Shown here: positions 4,302 through 52,800 of the stretch, in pieces
Layout of the letters: each line of letters opens with the position of its first letter
Position numbering within the stretch: the first letter of the stretch is position 1
Source of the DNA: an uncultured Anaerolineales bacterium
GTDB taxonomy: Bacteria; Chloroflexota; Anaerolineae; Aggregatilineales; Aggregatilineaceae
Direction: 5' to 3'
Length of the DNA stretch: 64,000 nt
NCBI GenBank assembly: GCA_937135955.1
Contig: CAKZOB010000042.1
Location: forward strand, 186,001-250,000
The notes under the pieces: model-generated
What the model saw: only the letters and a program-made list of their open reading frames with translations
Told to the model about the DNA's origin: nothing
The model's database searches: none
Translations under genes and position numbers: made by a program

Positions 4302-5381
4302 CTAGCCGTGCACCTCCGGCAGCAGAAAGAACGCCAGCGCCACGATGACATAGACGGCCAGCAGCATCAACCCTTCCAGCCAGTTGGATTCGCCGTCTTC
4401 GGCGACCAACGCCGCCACATAGGATGCCGCCGCCAGGGCGATGATCTCTGGCAACGAAAAGGCCAGGATCAGTTTTCGCTCGAACAACAGGCTGACGAAC
4501 ACCAACACCGGCGCGACGAACAGCGCGATCTGCAGGCTGGAGCCAAGCGCAATGGCCATGCTCAGTTCCATGCGGTTCTTCAGCGCCACCTGCACGGCCA
4601 CCAGGTGCTCGGCCACGTTGCCGATGATGGGCACGATGATGACGCCGACGAACAACTCGCTCCAGCCCAATTGCTCGACCACCGGCTCGACCGTCCCCAC
4701 CAGGAATTCGGACATGATCACGATGCCCACAGTGGCAAAGGCCAGCACGCCAACCGCCAGCGGGGCCGACCAGCGCGGCTCGTGATGGCGCGCTTCTTCC
4801 GCCGCCTCGCCCCGCAGCAGCGAATAGACGATGTTGGCCGCGTAGAGCGCGATCAGAATCAGCGCGATGCCCTCGCTCAGCAGCAGTTCGGACTCAAACG
4901 CGCGGCTTTCGACGAAGGTGTGGTCGAAGAGCGAGGGGATCGCCAGCGCCATAAAGGCCAGGATGAGCAGCGTCGCGCTCATGGACGCCTGCCGCCGCTC
5001 GAAGACCTGAATGCCGTGCCGCAGCCCACCCAGAAAGATCGCCAGGCCCATCACCAGCAACAGGTTGCCCAGCACCGAACCGATGATCGAGGCGCGCACC
5101 AGTTCCAGCAAGCCTTCTTTGAGGGCAAAAATGGTGATGATCAGCTCCGCCGCGTTGCCCAGGGTGGCGTTGAGCAGCCCGCCGAGTTGCGGCCCCACCC
5201 GCGCGGCGATCTCCTCGGTCGCCCGACCGATCAACCCCGCCAGCGGGATGATCGCCAGCGCCGACGTCGCGAAAATGGCCACGTCGTCCCCGTCGGTCAG
5301 GCGCAGCGCCACCGCGATCACGCCGAAGAGCAGTAGCGAGTCGAGGCTGACCAGTTTCTTGAGTTCGAAAGCCCGCGCCAT
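4302..5381 (-). CDS. cax: Ca2+/H+ antiporter of the CAX type
   Basis: About 359 residues with roughly eleven membrane segments in two homologous halves. Each half carries the alpha-repeat signature: [20 protein letters not shown] in the first half and [19 protein letters not shown] in the second, where the GN(A/V)AE acidic residues bind cation. The family exchanges cytosolic Ca2+ for protons at the inner membrane. An upstream GTG at 5390 is possible; ATG 5381 is preferred because AGGTGG lies at a better distance. It follows the biotin carboxylase gene after a 258-bp gap holding a repeat, so may have its own promoter. Confidence 0.9.
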
Positions 5382-19408: not shown

Positions 19409-19426
19409 ACCGGGCTAAAGCCCGGT
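19409..19426. repeat. ACCGGGCTAAAGCCCGGT hairpin near TnpB remnant
   Basis: Palindrome with 8-bp arms sharing its GCTAAAGC tip with the hairpin at 19245-19258. Likely the other end of the decayed element, in the 373-bp gap between mce and the mutase gene. Confidence 0.5.
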
Positions 19427-19535
19427 GTCCCCTGGCGCAATTTCTATGGGCAGGCTTACGAGGGTCACCGGGAGCGGAAAAGCCGTAGAATCAGGGTACA
19501 GAATTCGCTCGCAGACCGGAGAAAGGGAGTTGGCG

Positions 19536-21215
19536 ATGTATCATCCCAAGAAGATAGCCGCGCTGCGCGCCGAACAGGAACGCTGGGCCACCACCGCCCT
19601 GCCGCAGACGCTTGCCCGTCAGCCCGAACGGCAGGAGCAGTTCAGCACGCGCAGCGGGCGACCGGTGCAGTGTGTCTACACGCCGCTGGATGTAGCCGAT
19701 CTCGATTACAGCGCCGATCTTGGCTTTCCCGGTGAATACCCCTTCACGCGCGGCATTCACGCCACCGGCTATCGGGGTCGCCTGTGGACGATGCGCATGT
19801 TCGCCGGTTTCGGCACCGCGGAGGAGACCAATGCCCGCTACAAGTATTTGTTGGCGCAGGGCAATATGGGGCTGTCGGTCGCCTTCGACCTGCCCACTCT
19901 GATGGGCTACGACACCGACGCACCGGAAGCGCTGGGCGAATTCGGCAAGTGCGGGGTGGCCGTCAGCAGCCTGCAAGATATGGAGATTCTGTTCGACGGC
20001 ATCCCCCTGGATCAGGTGAGCACGTCCATGACCATCAACAGTCCGGCGGCGGCGCTGTGGGCGTTCTATATCGCGACGGCGGAGCGGCAGGGCGTGCCCA
20101 TAAGCGCGCTGCGCGGCACGATTCAGAACGACATCCTCAAGGAGTATCAGGCGCAGAAGGAATACATCTTCCCGCCGGAGCCGTCTATGCGCCTGGTGAT
20201 CGACACCATCGAGTTTGGGACACAGTATCTGCCGCAGTGGAACCCTATCAGCATCAGCGGCTATCACATCCGCGAAGCAGGTGCGACGGCGGCGCAGGAG
20301 TTGGCCTTCACCCTGGCCAACGGGATGGAGTATGTGCGCTGGGCGCTGCGACGCGGCCTGGACATTGACGAGTTCGCCCCCCGGCTGAGTTTCTTCTTCA
20401 ATGTGCACAGCGATTTCTTCGAGGAGATCGCCAAGCTGCGCGCGGCCCGCCGCATTTGGGCGCGAGAGATGCGCCATACCTTCGGCGCGCGCAACCCGCG
20501 TAGCTGGCTGATGCGCTTCCACACACAGACCGCGGGCGTCAGCCTGACCGCGCAGCAGCCAGAAAACAACATTGTGCGCGTGGCGCTTCAGGCGTTGGCG
20601 GCGGTACTGGGCGGGGCGCAGTCGCTGCACACCAACAGCATGGATGAAGCGCTGGCCTTGCCGTCGGAGCAAGCGGTGACGATCGCCCTGCGCACCCAGC
20701 AGATCATCGCTCACGAGACCAGCGTCACCAACACGGTGGATCCGCTGGGCGGCAGCTTTTACGTGGAGCGGCTGACGAACGAGCTGGAAGAGGAAGCCTA
20801 CGCCACCTTCCGGCGCATTGAAGAACTGGGCGGCGTGCTGGCCTGCGTAGAGAATGGTTTCTTCCAGCAGGAGATCGCCGATTCCGCCCACCGCTTCCAG
20901 CGCGAGATAGACACCGGAGAACGTGTTATTGTAGGTGTAAACGCCTTCCAGGGCGACGAACCGCTGCGCATCCCCTTGTTGGCGATGGACCCGCAGGGCT
21001 ACGAGCGCCAGGTAGCCCGGCTGGAGGCGCTGCGCAAGAGCCGGGATGGCGCAGCGGTCGAACGGGCGCTGGATGGGCTGCGGCAGGCCGCGCAGGGGAC
21101 AGAGAACGTCATGCCGCATCTATTGGCGGCGGCGCGCGCCTATGCGACCCTGGGCGAGATCATGGACGCGCTGCGAGAAGTGTTCGGGGTCTACCGCGAG
21201 CCGCTGATCGTGTAG
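19536..21215 (+). CDS. Acyl-CoA mutase large subunit (methylmalonyl/isobutyryl-CoA mutase family)
   Basis: A 560-residue protein covering only the substrate-binding TIM barrel and linker; the C-terminal B12-binding domain (DxHxxG) is absent, so a separate cobalamin subunit must be encoded elsewhere. Start ATG 19536 follows AAAGGGAG. Landmarks: [101 protein letters not shown] and [19 protein letters not shown]. At two positions that set substrate choice it has Phe89 and Gln207, where methylmalonyl-CoA mutases have Tyr and Arg; Phe/Gln is the isobutyryl-CoA mutase pair. It probably rearranges isobutyryl-CoA and n-butyryl-CoA, though neighbouring mce argues for methylmalonyl-CoA. Confidence 0.88.
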
Positions 21216-21220
21216 CGGAC

Positions 21221-21303
21221 GCGCGCCAGGCGCACGCGCGCAGCGCGCGTCGGCGCGACTTCGTCGCGCCGGGCAGGGCGTAGCCCTGCCGCGCCTGGCG
21301 CGC
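21221..21303. repeat. Cloverleaf-forming palindromic element between convergent genes
   Basis: An outer perfect 12-bp stem (21221-21232 with 21292-21303) encloses three consecutive perfect hairpins, each with a 3-base loop: 21234-21250 (7 bp, loop CAG), 21252-21270 (8 bp, loop TTC) and 21272-21290 (8 bp, loop GTA). Almost every base is paired. It fills the whole gap between the convergent mutase and VOC genes and touches the VOC stop codon. It may be a bidirectional terminator or a REP-like element. There is no T-run on either side. Confidence 0.8.
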
Positions 21304-21695
21304 TACGGCGTATCCAGCCAATACTCAAGCTGGATGTTATCCGGGTCGCGGAAGGCGACGTAGTAATAGCGCCCGTGAAAAAGCTCCACACCTTTCGTGT
21401 CCACGCCGGCAGCGATCAGCCTGTCGGCCAGCTCGTCCAGAAATTCCTTGCTCGGTGCAGTGAAGGCCAGATGATCCAGCCCGATGCGAAATTCGCTGAA
21501 GCGATCGCCGGGCGGTGTCTGCTCGTGCCGAATCAGCCAGACTGCCGCGCCGTTTTCGGCGGGAAAGTACATGAGCCTGCCGGTGGGGATGGGCACTTCG
21601 TGCACCTCGAAGCCAAGCAGGTCGCCGTAGAAAGCGCGTGCCTTGTCGAGATCGGAGACTGTCAGGATAATGTGGTTGATGGCGGGGATAGGCAT
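21303..21695 (-). CDS. VOC (glyoxalase/dioxygenase-fold) protein
   Basis: A 130-residue single-unit VOC protein: INHIILTVSDLDKARAFYGD at the start, GFEVHEVP, GLDHLAFTAPSKEFLDEL in the middle, YYYVAFRDPDNIQLEYW at the end. His8, the central HLAF histidine and the late Glu would form the metal site. The family includes glyoxalase I, fosfomycin and bleomycin resistance proteins and ring-cleaving dioxygenases; the substrate cannot be told. A good ribosome site (GCAGGAG) and a near-consensus promoter with a palindromic operator precede it, so it is probably inducible. Confidence 0.85.
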   Translation of the reverse strand: MPIPAINHIILTVSDLDKARAFYGDLLGFEVHEVPIPTGRLMYFPAENGAAVWLIRHEQTPPGDRFSEFRIGLDHLAFTAPSKEFLDELADRLIAAGVDTKGVELFHGRYYYVAFRDPDNIQLEYWLDTP

Positions 21696-22728: not shown

Positions 22729-22894
22729 GTTCAAGGGCGGACAGCCATTGAGAGCATCTCGAACGCTTAACTTACCTCACTCCCGCTTGGCGCTCACGCG
22801 CCTCGCTGCCCCCTCTCCGGGTCGGAGACTGGGGGTGAGGTAAACTGGAGCGAGCCAACCTTTACGCTTGCTCTAGCTCTGTCCGCCCCTGAAC
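22729..22894. mobile_element. MITE-like element with 16-bp terminal inverted repeats and 8-bp target duplication
   Basis: Terminal inverted repeats at 22729-22744 (GTTCAAGGGCGGACAG) and 22879-22894 match in 15 of 16 bases. Immediately outside lie TATTGCCC (22721-22728) and TATTGTCC (22895-22902), a probable 8-bp target duplication. The interior holds a shortened copy of the CCTCACCCCC palindromic core at 22772-22845. No reading frame inside. It separates the TPR and histidine kinase genes. Confidence 0.72.
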
Positions 22895-26480: not shown

Positions 26481-26495
26481 CGCGTGAGAGATGCT

Positions 26496-26592
26496 CACCA
26501 CAGAGAACACAGAGGGCGCGGAGATTACGCAGAGATTTTGAGACTTTCTCTCCTCTGTGGTTTCTCTGCGTTCTCTGTGCCCTCTGTGGTGA
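26496..26592. repeat. CAGAG-rich inverted repeat between convergent genes
   Basis: Begins CACCACAGAGAACACAGAGG and ends with its complement CCTCTGTGGTG, followed by AAGCTTTTTTT. Both arms continue into CAGAGAT/TCTCTG. It lies between the convergent SDR and gltX genes and would fold as a long hairpin, so it may end transcription from both sides. The same family occurs at 2203-2333, 11036-11079 and 36490-36545. Confidence 0.75.
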
Positions 26593-26608
26593 AGCTTTTT
26601 TTGCGCTC

Positions 26609-40895: not shown

Positions 40896-40935
40896 CCGTA
40901 GCGGGGGCGTGCGAAAAAAGGGCGGGGTGCAAAGG

Positions 40936-41151
40936 GGCGCGCGCAAACGGTGACGGGCAATGTGCAGCAGTCTGCTATCCCTCATCCCCAAATCCTCTCT
41001 GCCTCGCGACTGCGTCGCGGGGCGAGAGGACTTACTTTCTCTCACCTAGGCGCTCCCCTTCGCCCGTGTACAGCCTGCAGCGTGGGAGAAGGGGCCGGGG
41101 GATGAGGGTCATCGCCCGCAGCAAAGTCGCTGTCAACCTTTGCTCGCAGCC
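40936..41151. mobile_element. MITE-like element with imperfect terminal inverted repeats
   Basis: Left end GCGCGCAAACGGTGACGGGC pairs with the right end GTCAACCTTTGCTCGCAGCC as an imperfect inverted repeat of about 33 bp. The same ends bound the element at 49598-49790. The inside carries CCCTCATCCCC, the hairpin CGCGACTGCGTCGCG, and CCGGGGGATGAGGG. No coding frame. It fills most of the gap between the HEAT/Yip1 and phosphohexomutase genes. Confidence 0.7.
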
Positions 41152-43565: not shown

Positions 43566-43795
43566 TTTTGTGAAATGCCCCCTCAAAGGGAGCGCGAGCA
43601 AAGCTTCTCAGCGATTTGTCTGGTGCGGAGGCTTTACCTCACCCCCGCTCGGCGCTCGCGCGCCTCGCGCCCCCTCTCCGCGTCGGAGAGGGGGCAAGCC
43701 GAGCGAAGCAAGGCTGGGGGTGAGGTAAACCACAGCCCAGCAAACGGCCCATCACAGTTTGCGCGCACCTCTCAAATGGGGTGCATTTCAGGTTA
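43566..43795. mobile_element. Composite MITE-like element with CCTCACCCCC palindromic core
   Basis: Outer ends are inverted: TGTGAAATGCCCCCTCAAAG then GAGCGCGAGCAAAG on the left pair with TTTGCGCGCACC then TCAAATGGGGTGCATTTCA on the right. The core at 43633-43731 is the large palindrome TTTACCTCACCCCCGCTCGG ... GGGGGTGAGGTAAACC. Repeated flanking sequences occur: GGGTGCATTTCA at 43505 and 43779, and GCTGCGCCC-CTTGCAGACGGG at 43486-43507 and 43861-43882. No gene in the 492-bp gap between degV and the PBP2 gene. Confidence 0.65.
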
Positions 43796-49465: not shown

Positions 49466-49563
49466 TTGACCTCACCCCCACTCGGCGCTGGCGCGCCTCG
49501 CACCCCCTCTCCGACGCGGAGAGGGGGCAAGCCGAGCGGAGCGAGGCTGGGGGTGAGGTAAAG
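49466..49563. repeat. CCTCACCCCC palindromic core repeat
   Basis: About 98 bp: GACCTCACCCCCACTCGGCG ... CTCTCCGACGCGGAGAG ... GCTGGGGGTGAGGTAAAG. Same core as at 43633-43731, 51744-51842 and 62818-62917, here without outer terminal repeats. In the 622-bp gene-free stretch between secA and dnaE, which otherwise holds the element at 49598-49790. Confidence 0.75.
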
Positions 49564-49597: not shown

Positions 49598-49790
49598 GGG
49601 TGCGTACAAAAGGTGACAGGCGATTTGCAGCAGTCCGCTACCCCTCATCCCTACATCCCCTCTCCCTCGCGACTGCGTCGCGGGACGAGGGGACTTGCTT
49701 TCTGTCGTGCGAGTGCTCCCCTTCGCCCGCAGCGCGGGGGTGAGGGTCATCGGGCGGGGCAAAGCCGCTGACAACCTTTGCACGCACCCC
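49598..49790. mobile_element. MITE-like element with about 34-bp terminal inverted repeats
   Basis: Left end GGGTGCGTACAAAAGGTGAC and right end TGACAACCTTTGCACGCACC are inverted copies that continue inward to about 34 bp with few mismatches. The interior has CCCCTCATCCC, hairpin CGCGACTGCGTCGCG and GCGGGGGTGAGGG. Same layout as 40936-41151. No open frame, so mobilised in trans if at all. Confidence 0.75.
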
Positions 49791-49885: not shown

Positions 49886-52800
49886 CTACTCCGGCAGCTC
49901 CTCGATGATCACGTTTTCCTGGCCGAGCTTGCTAATCACCCGCTGCAAAGCTTCTTCATTGATCTGGATCGGGTGATTGGGGAAGTCCAGGCAGGCGCGC
50001 CGCCCGCCCCCCTGCACAATGAAGCGAAAACGATCCTGGCCGGGATACTCAGTCAGCACACCGTGCAGCCAGCGCAGCTTACGTTGGTCGGCGGTAGAAT
50101 CGCCGGAGCGCGTGACGATCAGGGTGAGCCGACGGCGCGGCTGCGGCGCGTCGGGTGCCGGTTGTGCAGCGCGCTCCTGACGGGCGGGCACAGGCGGCAG
50201 CGCATCGGGGCCTTGCACTTCCTGCGAGGCTACGCGGCGAACCTGGGGCAATTCCGCAGATCGCAGTGCTACCTCTTCCGCCTCCATTTCCGCCAAGACC
50301 CACTCAGGCACCTCGCGATCTGTCAAGGGGGGCGGCTCCGCCGACCCTGTCAGGTGCCCGGTTGGGACAACACCAGCCCCTGCCTCATAAGGCGCGCCCT
50401 CCTCCGGAGGCTCGCCCCAGACAAACGAAGTCGTGTTGTCCGCAACAGTTTCGCCTTTTTCCTCCTCGTAGACGCCGCCGTTCTCGCCGTTTTCGCTGCC
50501 CACCTCGCTATCGCGCAGCCAGCGCCCACCAGCCATGCTCAGGGGAGGCATTTCGGCGGGTTCGACGAGTTCGAAATTCTGGGTGACCGAATCAACGATG
50601 ATCTGCACATCCCCGCGCGACATGTCCGCCTTGCCGCGCACGACCAGCACCGCGTCTTCGTCCACGATTTCCCTGCACTGCTCCCAGGTGCGCGGGAACA
50701 TCACCGCGCTGATCGTGCCGGTGATATCCTCGATGGTCATGACAGCCATCGGCTCGCCACGCTTGGTGAAGAAGGTACGCAGGTTGGTCACCAGGCCAGC
50801 GATGGTCACTGGCTGCCCCTGGATAGCCTCGCCCGCTTCGATCAGGTCGGCGCTGGTATGGGTGATGACGCGCTGAAGCTGCCCCATGACCGCTTTAAGG
50901 GGGTGATCGGTCACATAGAGACCTACCAGTTCGCGTTCCCAGTTGAGCATCTCGCGCTGAGGGATATTTTCTACTTCGTGGAGATGGGCCAGGATGCTCT
51001 CGTGCGCGCCGAAGGAAACACCGGTCGTCTCGCCGAACAGGCTCATCTGCCCCAGGTCTTTGGCCTTGTGATACTCCACAGAAAAGCTGACGATACGGTC
51101 GAGCGCGGCCAACAACACCGGACGGCTGGCGAATTCGTCCAGCGCCCCCACTTTGATCAGCGACTCCAGGGCGCGCTTGTTGACGATGCGCGCATCCACG
51201 CGGCGGCAATAGTCTTCCAGATCGCGGAAGGGGCCACCCAGGCGGCGCTGTTCGAGGATATGCTCTGCCGGGCCGATTCCCAGATTCTTGATCGCGCCCA
51301 GGCCGAAGCGAATCGCCCGCGTGCCGTCCGGCTGCGGCTCGATGCTGAAGTCCAGCTCGCTGTTGTTGACGGTAGGCGGCAACACAGCAATGCCCATGCG
51401 ATGGCAGTCGGCAGCGAAGAGGCCGATCTTGGCCGAATCGTCGCGGTGCACGCTCATCAGCGCGGCCATGTACTCGTGCGGATAGTGACACTTGAGGAAA
51501 GCCGTCTGGCAGGTCAGCACGGCATAGTCAGCGGCGTGCGAGTTGTGGACAAGGATGTCGTTGGCAACAAAGTTGTGCGTATCGGGGACAGTGAGGTCGT
51601 ATGTCTCCGCCTCGCCCGCGTACTCGATCGAAACAATCCTATCCCAATAGATGTCGCCGGCGGCAGGCGTATCTGTATCAGCCAGTCGCAGGGCCGTATT
51701 GCGATACGCTCCTACCGACAAATCACCCGACGCGCGGGTGTAGACCTCACCCCCGGCCTCGCCATGCTCGGCCTGCCCCCTCTCCATGCATGAAGAGGGG
51801 GCAACGAGGCGCGCCAGCGCCGAGTGGGGGTGAGGTAAACCAGGCCGCGTCACACTCAAGGAAGAACGATCTACCTGTGGCAGGTCATTGACCACCCAGG
51901 TATCTGCAACATGTTGCACGCGACACAGAACGCCCAGCCGCAGCCATAGATGCTGGAGTTGCTGCGCTAGGCGGCGTGAAGCTGTCACCAGTTGACCGTC
52001 CGTTGCGCTGCGCTCCCACAGTCGCATGAGTAGACGCGCGACACATGAGTTCGCCAGCCCGAAGATCTCGTCGGGCAAAGCGGTCGTCGGGCAGTCAAGA
52101 GCCAGCGAATCAGCCAGAGCCATCATCGCTTGTTCCGGCCACTCGTTGCGGCCTTCCACAGGAATCCGGCGCGGCACGGCAATCGTATCGCCGACGCTCA
52201 ACTCGCTCAGCAAACGCCAGCCGTCTTGGGTGTAGAAAGGATGGTTGGCCGTTGCTGTGATCTGCCGCCCCAGTTGGGTGCTCAGGCGATAGACTGGCCT
52301 GACACCATTGGCCATCACCTGAGTGACTGGACCGGATCGGAAGGTGAGCCGTCCCAGCTCGCAGGTCAACGTGTGTTCGATGCTTGCCGCGCCCGTTGCC
52401 AGGTCGCCCACGCGCACCAGCCGACCACTTGCCGCATCCACGATCTCCGTGTCCGCCACAACACACTTGTTGAAACCATACCGCGCGAAGAACTCGATGT
52501 CGTCGAAGATGGCGTTGGCCGTGTCGGGGTCTACGCCATGCTGCGGCCCGCGCTCGATGAAGATCGTGCGATGCTTGAGCAGGTCTTCTTTCTTCTTTTT
52601 GGAAACAGCACGGCGCATCAGATCGGCTTCGCCCAGCGAATAGCCGAACAGTTCCGCGCCGATCTGCATAATCTGCTCCTGGTAGACGATGATGCCGTAA
52701 GTTTCTTCCAGGATGGGCCGCAGCTTCTCGTGTTTGTATTCGACCGGCTCTTCCCCATGCAGACGCCGGTTGTAGCTGGGGATATACTCCATCGGGCCGG

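Follow-up and report, generated by a model that had tools for sequence, protein, structure and literature searches.

Between two convergent genes of this draft genome lies a cloverleaf in which nearly every base is paired, and the locus raises the question of whether such a structure is there to end or protect transcripts, or whether it is one copy of a mobile palindrome. An initial annotation of the window (the whole 64-kb stretch of DNA that was analysed, part of contig 42 of the 4.28-Mb draft genome G000, hereafter the own genome) had considered a terminator, an RNA-stability element and a REP-like mobile palindrome. Our comparison with related genomes points to a variant of the last: we consider it probable, though far from settled, that the cloverleaf is one copy of a dispersed non-coding REP/MITE-like palindrome whose shape is constant and whose letters are not. 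The features of the locus are as follows.

19425..21215, plus strand: methylmalonyl-CoA mutase gene (mcm, PF01642), 3′ end toward the cloverleaf, start codon uncertain
21221..21303, no strand: cloverleaf core, outer stem of 13 bp closing three perfect triloop arms
21221..21233, no strand: left half of the outer stem, GC followed by GCGCCAGGCGC
21234..21250, no strand: arm 1, ACGCGCG-cag-CGCGCGT
21251..21271, no strand: arm 2, CGGCGCGAC-ttc-GTCGCGCCG
21272..21290, no strand: arm 3, GGCAGGGC-gta-GCCCTGCC
21291..21303, no strand: right half of the outer stem, final base within the VOC stop codon
21303..21695, minus strand: VOC / glyoxalase-like gene (PF00903), 3′ end toward the cloverleaf

Architecture and folding

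The initial annotation had the coordinates (21221-21303) exactly, and it had correctly placed the structure between convergent genes, with the 3′ ends of mcm (plus) and VOC (minus) both facing it. The mcm stop codon occupies 21213-21215 and the cloverleaf begins 5 bases downstream, and its end does fall on a base of the VOC stop codon, the third (ORF 21303-21695, minus strand). The cloverleaf itself is present, but its stems had been drawn too short: the outer stem has 13 and not 12 bp, and the arms, all of which end in triloops, have 7, 9 and 8 bp instead of 7, 8 and 8 bp. The paired count rises from 72 to 74 of the 83 bases, the remaining nine being the three triloops, the four-way junction holds no unpaired base, and the structure is stronger than had been claimed. 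The 11 inner nucleotides of the left half of the outer stem (21221..21233) also form a near-palindrome on their own.

The fold is closed on either strand of the 83 bases, and RNA folding of 103 nt, a check that had been proposed for it, gave very stable structures on the two strands (-81.6 and -80.4 kcal/mol, with z-scores of -5.65 and -6.69), none of 200 shuffles being as low. The region is very GC-rich, and a chance structure could be suspected in such DNA, but this explanation can be considered refuted, given that no shuffle folds as well, that the cloverleaf is conserved in relatives and that its 37 pairs compare with a maximum of 24 when the 64-kb window was resampled ten times with a first-order Markov model. 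Multi-arm structures of at least 18 pairs were counted in these resampled windows and averaged 0.8 apiece.

Copies in the taxonomic family and the pairing of their stems

In the own genome the letters of the cloverleaf occur once, and the covariance models R1 and R2 returned the window copy only. Further BLAST matches in this genome were short and weak (40.1 bits or less), the 18 loci that were folded out of 29 such matches gave no closed cloverleaf, and a fold scan over 436 kb, made up of contig C73 and nearly all of C42, detected other palindrome families and no second cloverleaf of this kind. The genome search suggested by the initial annotation thus yielded a single copy at home, but relatives do have copies: covariance models located 35 places in seven of the 18 family genomes (G010 has 18, G015 nine, G014 four, and G000, G003, G004 and G005 one each), and no copy in the other 11. 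Absence from every related genome, which that annotation had named as an argument against itself, was not what we found. All the genomes are drafts.

The first covariance model was built from an alignment of seven copies (A2), in which all 217 cells are paired, 15 of 31 pairs show double changes and one cell is G-U; a search of 154 genomes of the order with it gave 17 rows in seven genomes, each of them a member of the own family. The total of 35 was reached with more candidates scored per genome and with a second model made from 21 copies (A3), for which three copies (L258, L255 and L124) were dropped from the 24 known at that point. Beyond the own taxonomic family, model R1 found no copy in the 154 genomes of the order, and model R2, run with stricter filters and 11 candidates scored per genome, found none among the matches listed for a class sample of 396 genomes. 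The outer-stem pattern by itself occurs at no fewer than 271 places in at least 239 loci of other genomes and viral contigs, with no cloverleaf among the matches listed; a genome of the same order (G027) has a pattern match on contig 59 at 4961-5047. Plasmids and phages gave no match. As far as searched, the cloverleaf family would be confined to one family of Chloroflexota. On a gammaproteobacterial contig (L147, JAPPJO010000129.1), seven outer-stem-pattern matches that are not cloverleafs follow one another in steps of about 145 bp and perhaps form a tandem repeat.

Other palindromes are found in the window and the own genome. A 132-bp repeat pair at 40935-41066 and 49598-49729, part of a further palindrome family, carries the hairpin GCGAC-tgc-GTCGC, which the initial annotation had rightly reported from MITE-like elements and which lies at 41006 and 49669. 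The middle arm of the cloverleaf contains GCGAC-ttc-GTCGC, and the short motif GCGAC...GTCGC is therefore common to both, but the proposed relationship to the MITEs of the window goes no further, as no wider homology was found. A 97-bp MITE-like repeat (TTTACCTCACCCCC...GGGGGTGAGGTAAA), with an outer stem and three arms, occupies 43633-43729, 49466-49562 and about 51739-51840, with partial window copies at 22772 and 62819; a strict pattern locates it 17 times in 436 kb of the own genome, some of these places lacking the middle arm (e.g. C42:148355, 58 nt). Finally, window positions 26481-26600 form a very strong long hairpin of CACAGAG-type repeats, with the lowest fold score in those 436 kb.

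The letters of the cloverleaf copies differ between genomes and within genomes, and copies of different genomes have little in common except their outer stem and the pattern of pairs. The 11-nt pattern in the outer stem of the window copy recurs, as GCGCCNGGCGC, in closed three-arm cloverleafs of G003, G004 and G005 and in two G014 copies, and one G015 cloverleaf has the outer pattern GCGCCTTGCGC; the cores measure 71-88 nt, the outer stem has 9-13 bp or more and mostly reads GCGCC...GGCGC, and 75 of the 105 loops are triloops and 28 tetraloops. Watson-Crick pairs fill 1215 of 1227 stem cells over the 35 copies (the others being four G-T, one A-C and seven of other kinds) and 25 copies are fully Watson-Crick, in a count for which the parser picked the best-paired reading of each copy, one unpaired base was omitted in three copies (C137, C526 and C33), and the scarcity of mismatches is partly due to ascertainment, since covariance models favour well-paired copies. 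A G014 copy with two mismatches was detected all the same.

Within A3, 98.9% of 650 cells are paired and 22 of 31 pairs show double changes; compared with the commonest pair, 148 cells carry a double change, two are changed on one side and seven are unpaired. None of 500 shuffles reached the covariation score of this alignment, and the further standard pair types did not exceed the shuffles, of which 127 of 500 scored as high. Changes also affect larger units. Among the G010 copies the GTGCGCT arm is nearly constant and the middle arm is CGAAGCGAC, CGAAGCGGC, CAGCGCGGC, CAGAGCGGC, CGGCGAGGCTC or ACGAGCCACGCG, each perfectly partnered; whole arms are exchanged in this one genome. The loops of the GTGCGCT arm are found in both senses (ttc and gaaa), and the middle-arm loop is ttc in G000 and gaa in G004 when the arm order is set alike.

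Strong covariation is what ordinary compensatory evolution would leave in a structured RNA, such as a bidirectional 3′-UTR element or terminator, under selection on its fold. We regard this as a serious alternative, yet a doubtful one. Selection on a one-strand RNA tolerates G-U pairs, but these are almost absent (4 of 1227 cells), arms are replaced wholesale, and no Rfam family exceeded its gathering score, the best match having 16.3 bits against a cut-off of 50.

Position behind genes and a possible role in RNA

Gene neighbours, judged by means of ORFs, GC3 and partly Pfam, could be assigned on both sides for 27 of the 35 copies, of which 11 lie in convergent gaps, 16 in tandem gaps and none in a divergent gap. 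Four of the remaining copies have a gene end facing them, one is unclear and three have a gene start facing them; in one of these three (G015:C147, L132 and L432) a TnpB (OrfB_IS605) gene lies downstream of the cloverleaf, at a distance of about 250 bp. Gaps of 60-600 bp in the own genome are convergent in 32 cases (17.9%), tandem in 106 (59.2%) and divergent in 41 (22.9%), and the chance of no divergent gap in 27 is 0.0009 and that of at least 11 convergent ones 0.005 (0.0015 and 0.024, respectively, with the g1 mcm loci counted once). One report (PMC3733652) describes REPs as dispersed palindromes behind genes with the same preference for tandem and convergent gaps, the kinds of gap in which all 27 two-sided copies are located.

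The gap behind mcm was compared in ten genomes, and a strong hairpin or palindrome lies downstream of the orthologue in nine of them. Five carry the cloverleaf family (G000, G003, G004, G005 and G015), G009 and G011 have an ordinary strong hairpin, G006 has a long stem of short AGCTAAGAACAGC-like repeats in its place (C4, about 254000, L104), G007 has a different multi-arm palindrome, and G010 has no hairpin or palindrome. For the own genome as a whole, a perfect stem of at least 9 bp follows 17 of 170 gene ends. Relative to mcm, the order of the arms in G004 is reversed with respect to G000. On the mcm tree the presence of the cloverleaf at this site needs three changes, which may be one gain and two losses or else repeated gains; ancestral presence, followed by loss or replacement, is possible.

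Both the 3′ placement with its zero divergent gaps and the recurrence of the cloverleaf (five genomes) or of other strong hairpins (four more) at the mcm site would suit selection on a structured RNA. A U-tract, however, is absent at the window site and on either side of all 35 copies, and because of this the cloverleaf is not a standard intrinsic terminator; the terminator reading of the initial annotation finds no support in the usual sense. Its second proposal, an RNA-stability element, is plausible from the position and stability of the fold. Transcription from either side would give an RNA with a very stable four-way junction, which could block 3′-to-5′ decay and mark where one transcript ends, or two convergent ones, and we infer that protection from 3′ exonucleases would be the simplest role for such a junction at the 3′ end of a transcript.

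Likeness to mobile palindromes and a possible origin of the arms

In regards to our preferred reading, a dispersed REP/MITE-like palindrome, the cloverleaf resembles REP, REPIN and BIME sequences in being a non-coding GC-rich palindrome that is dispersed and sits behind genes, in gaps between tandem or convergent neighbours. It differs from them in its closed three-arm form of 71-88 nt, compared with the imperfect hairpin or hairpin pair of 20-40 nt of a REP, in its low copy number (1-18) with arm letters that are free to change, and in the GTAG/CGTC tag (or its complement), which is found up to 8 nt from the stem, on one side or the other, in only six of the 35 copies. Mobility is suggested by the dispersal only. 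The initial annotation's REP-like mobile palindrome is borne out by dispersal in relatives and by placement behind genes, but the copy is single in its own genome, no transposase could be linked to the copies in a search that covered Y1 transposases only, and direct repeats of at least 4 nt abut none of the 35 cores, whose edges may not be the true outer ends of the element.

If the cloverleaf were a REPIN-type element and a RAYT (REP-associated tyrosine transposase) its mover, the REP-like dispersal behind genes (PMC3733652) would be explained. Y1 domains are present in 17 of the 18 family genomes, a Y1-like response-regulator gene adjoins one G014 copy, and a G015 copy is close to the TnpB gene mentioned above. 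Even so, such a mover seems distinctly unlikely. The only Y1 matches in G000, G005 (one each) and G010 (two) are the C-termini of response-regulator proteins of about 1000-1200 aa, the six Y1-like C-termini that were read revealed no HUH motif, and no RAYT, flanked by the repeat or otherwise, was seen in these three drafts, which may miss one; the scarcity of tags and the size of the core also argue against it. We had considered a RAYT link through the G014 copy beside a Y1 match and dropped it, as this Y1 resembles the C-terminus of the response-regulator protein. That protein, of about 930-1230 aa and present in most family genomes (e.g. G000:C32:4321-7905, L273), combines an N-terminal response-regulator receiver with a C-terminal Y1 transposase-like domain without a visible HUH motif, apparently a domesticated transposase fold.

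With MITEs the cloverleaf shares a terminal inverted repeat closing a folded interior, as in the likewise three-armed TTTACCTCACCCCC repeats of the own genome, and it is short, non-coding and multi-copy in G010, G015 and G014 (18, 9 and 4 copies; single in G000), but neither a parent transposase (Y1 was sought) nor a target duplication abutting the core was found. The double-hairpin elements of Allomyces are reportedly also GC-rich palindromes with a conserved fold, proliferation and hairpin shuffling. The same traits are described for the GC clusters of yeast mitochondria in PMC4478555; unlike both, the cloverleaf is bacterial and chromosomal, closed, situated behind genes and longer than the 42-nt yeast cluster. 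Judged by its sequence, it would be REP/MITE-like in placement and dispersal, at variance with REPs in tag and size, and devoid of a known mover. Within a limited search of the literature we found no such element.

The G015 copies, with outer flanks TTTTTTCG...CGAAAAAA, offer a view of core orientation. In eight of the nine, the outer stem is flanked on one side by a single GGGASTCC-like box, which adjoins the GGCGGAG arm in L124, L130, L131 and L132 and the CC arm in L122, L127, L128 and L129, i.e. the orientation of the core relative to the box is 4:4. The inverted terminal repeats of adeno-associated virus have an outer stem with small inner arms, a one-sided neighbouring box and an inner part that occurs in both orientations (flip/flop). 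It is conceivable, although we give this idea little credence, that the shape is the heritable unit of a mobile element, an enzyme acting in trans and recognising the closed three-arm DNA cloverleaf rather than its letters, with the arms being swapped like cassettes, and that the 4:4 orientation was left behind by an intermediate with hairpin ends that could be resolved either way, by analogy with the flip/flop of parvoviruses. The likeness to the viral repeats is a tentative one, and the cloverleaf differs from them in being three-armed and chromosomal, with no replication protein or replicon seen.

It is probably at the DNA level that the arms of a REP/MITE-like palindrome would be maintained free of mismatches. 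Polymerase template switching from one hairpin half to the other would do most of this, replacing the two partners of a pair in a single step, and could turn loops and the core. Two reports indicate that template switching between inverted repeats homogenises arms and inverts spacers (PMC8604942), and that it creates RNA stems and keeps them perfect, with occasional loop inversion (PMC8794818). One process would then account for the perfect arms, the scarce intermediates, the turned loops and perhaps the turned core. Taken further, the palindromes could be a purely mutational product, grown and perfected by template switching with neither function nor transposition; the loop and core inversions and the simultaneous double changes fit this, but we consider it unlikely, since the architecture is constant (three arms, a junction gap of almost nil and GCGCC/GGCGC outside) at unrelated sites of G010 and G015, and zero divergent placements would not be expected from local mutation alone. 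In the preferred scenario of a dispersed palindrome, copies would have been spread by an enzyme in trans, and the element would now perhaps be inactive where a single copy remains behind mcm.

In a poorly studied phylum, the cloverleaf would add a closed three-arm design to the REP/MITE-like repeats, and the orthologous site behind mcm is one where different palindromes substitute for one another. It is also a natural test case for the question of whether covariation can be taken as proof of RNA function: both partners of its pairs change, G-U intermediates being very scarce, and double changes of this kind are what would be expected if template switching rewrites palindromes in one event.
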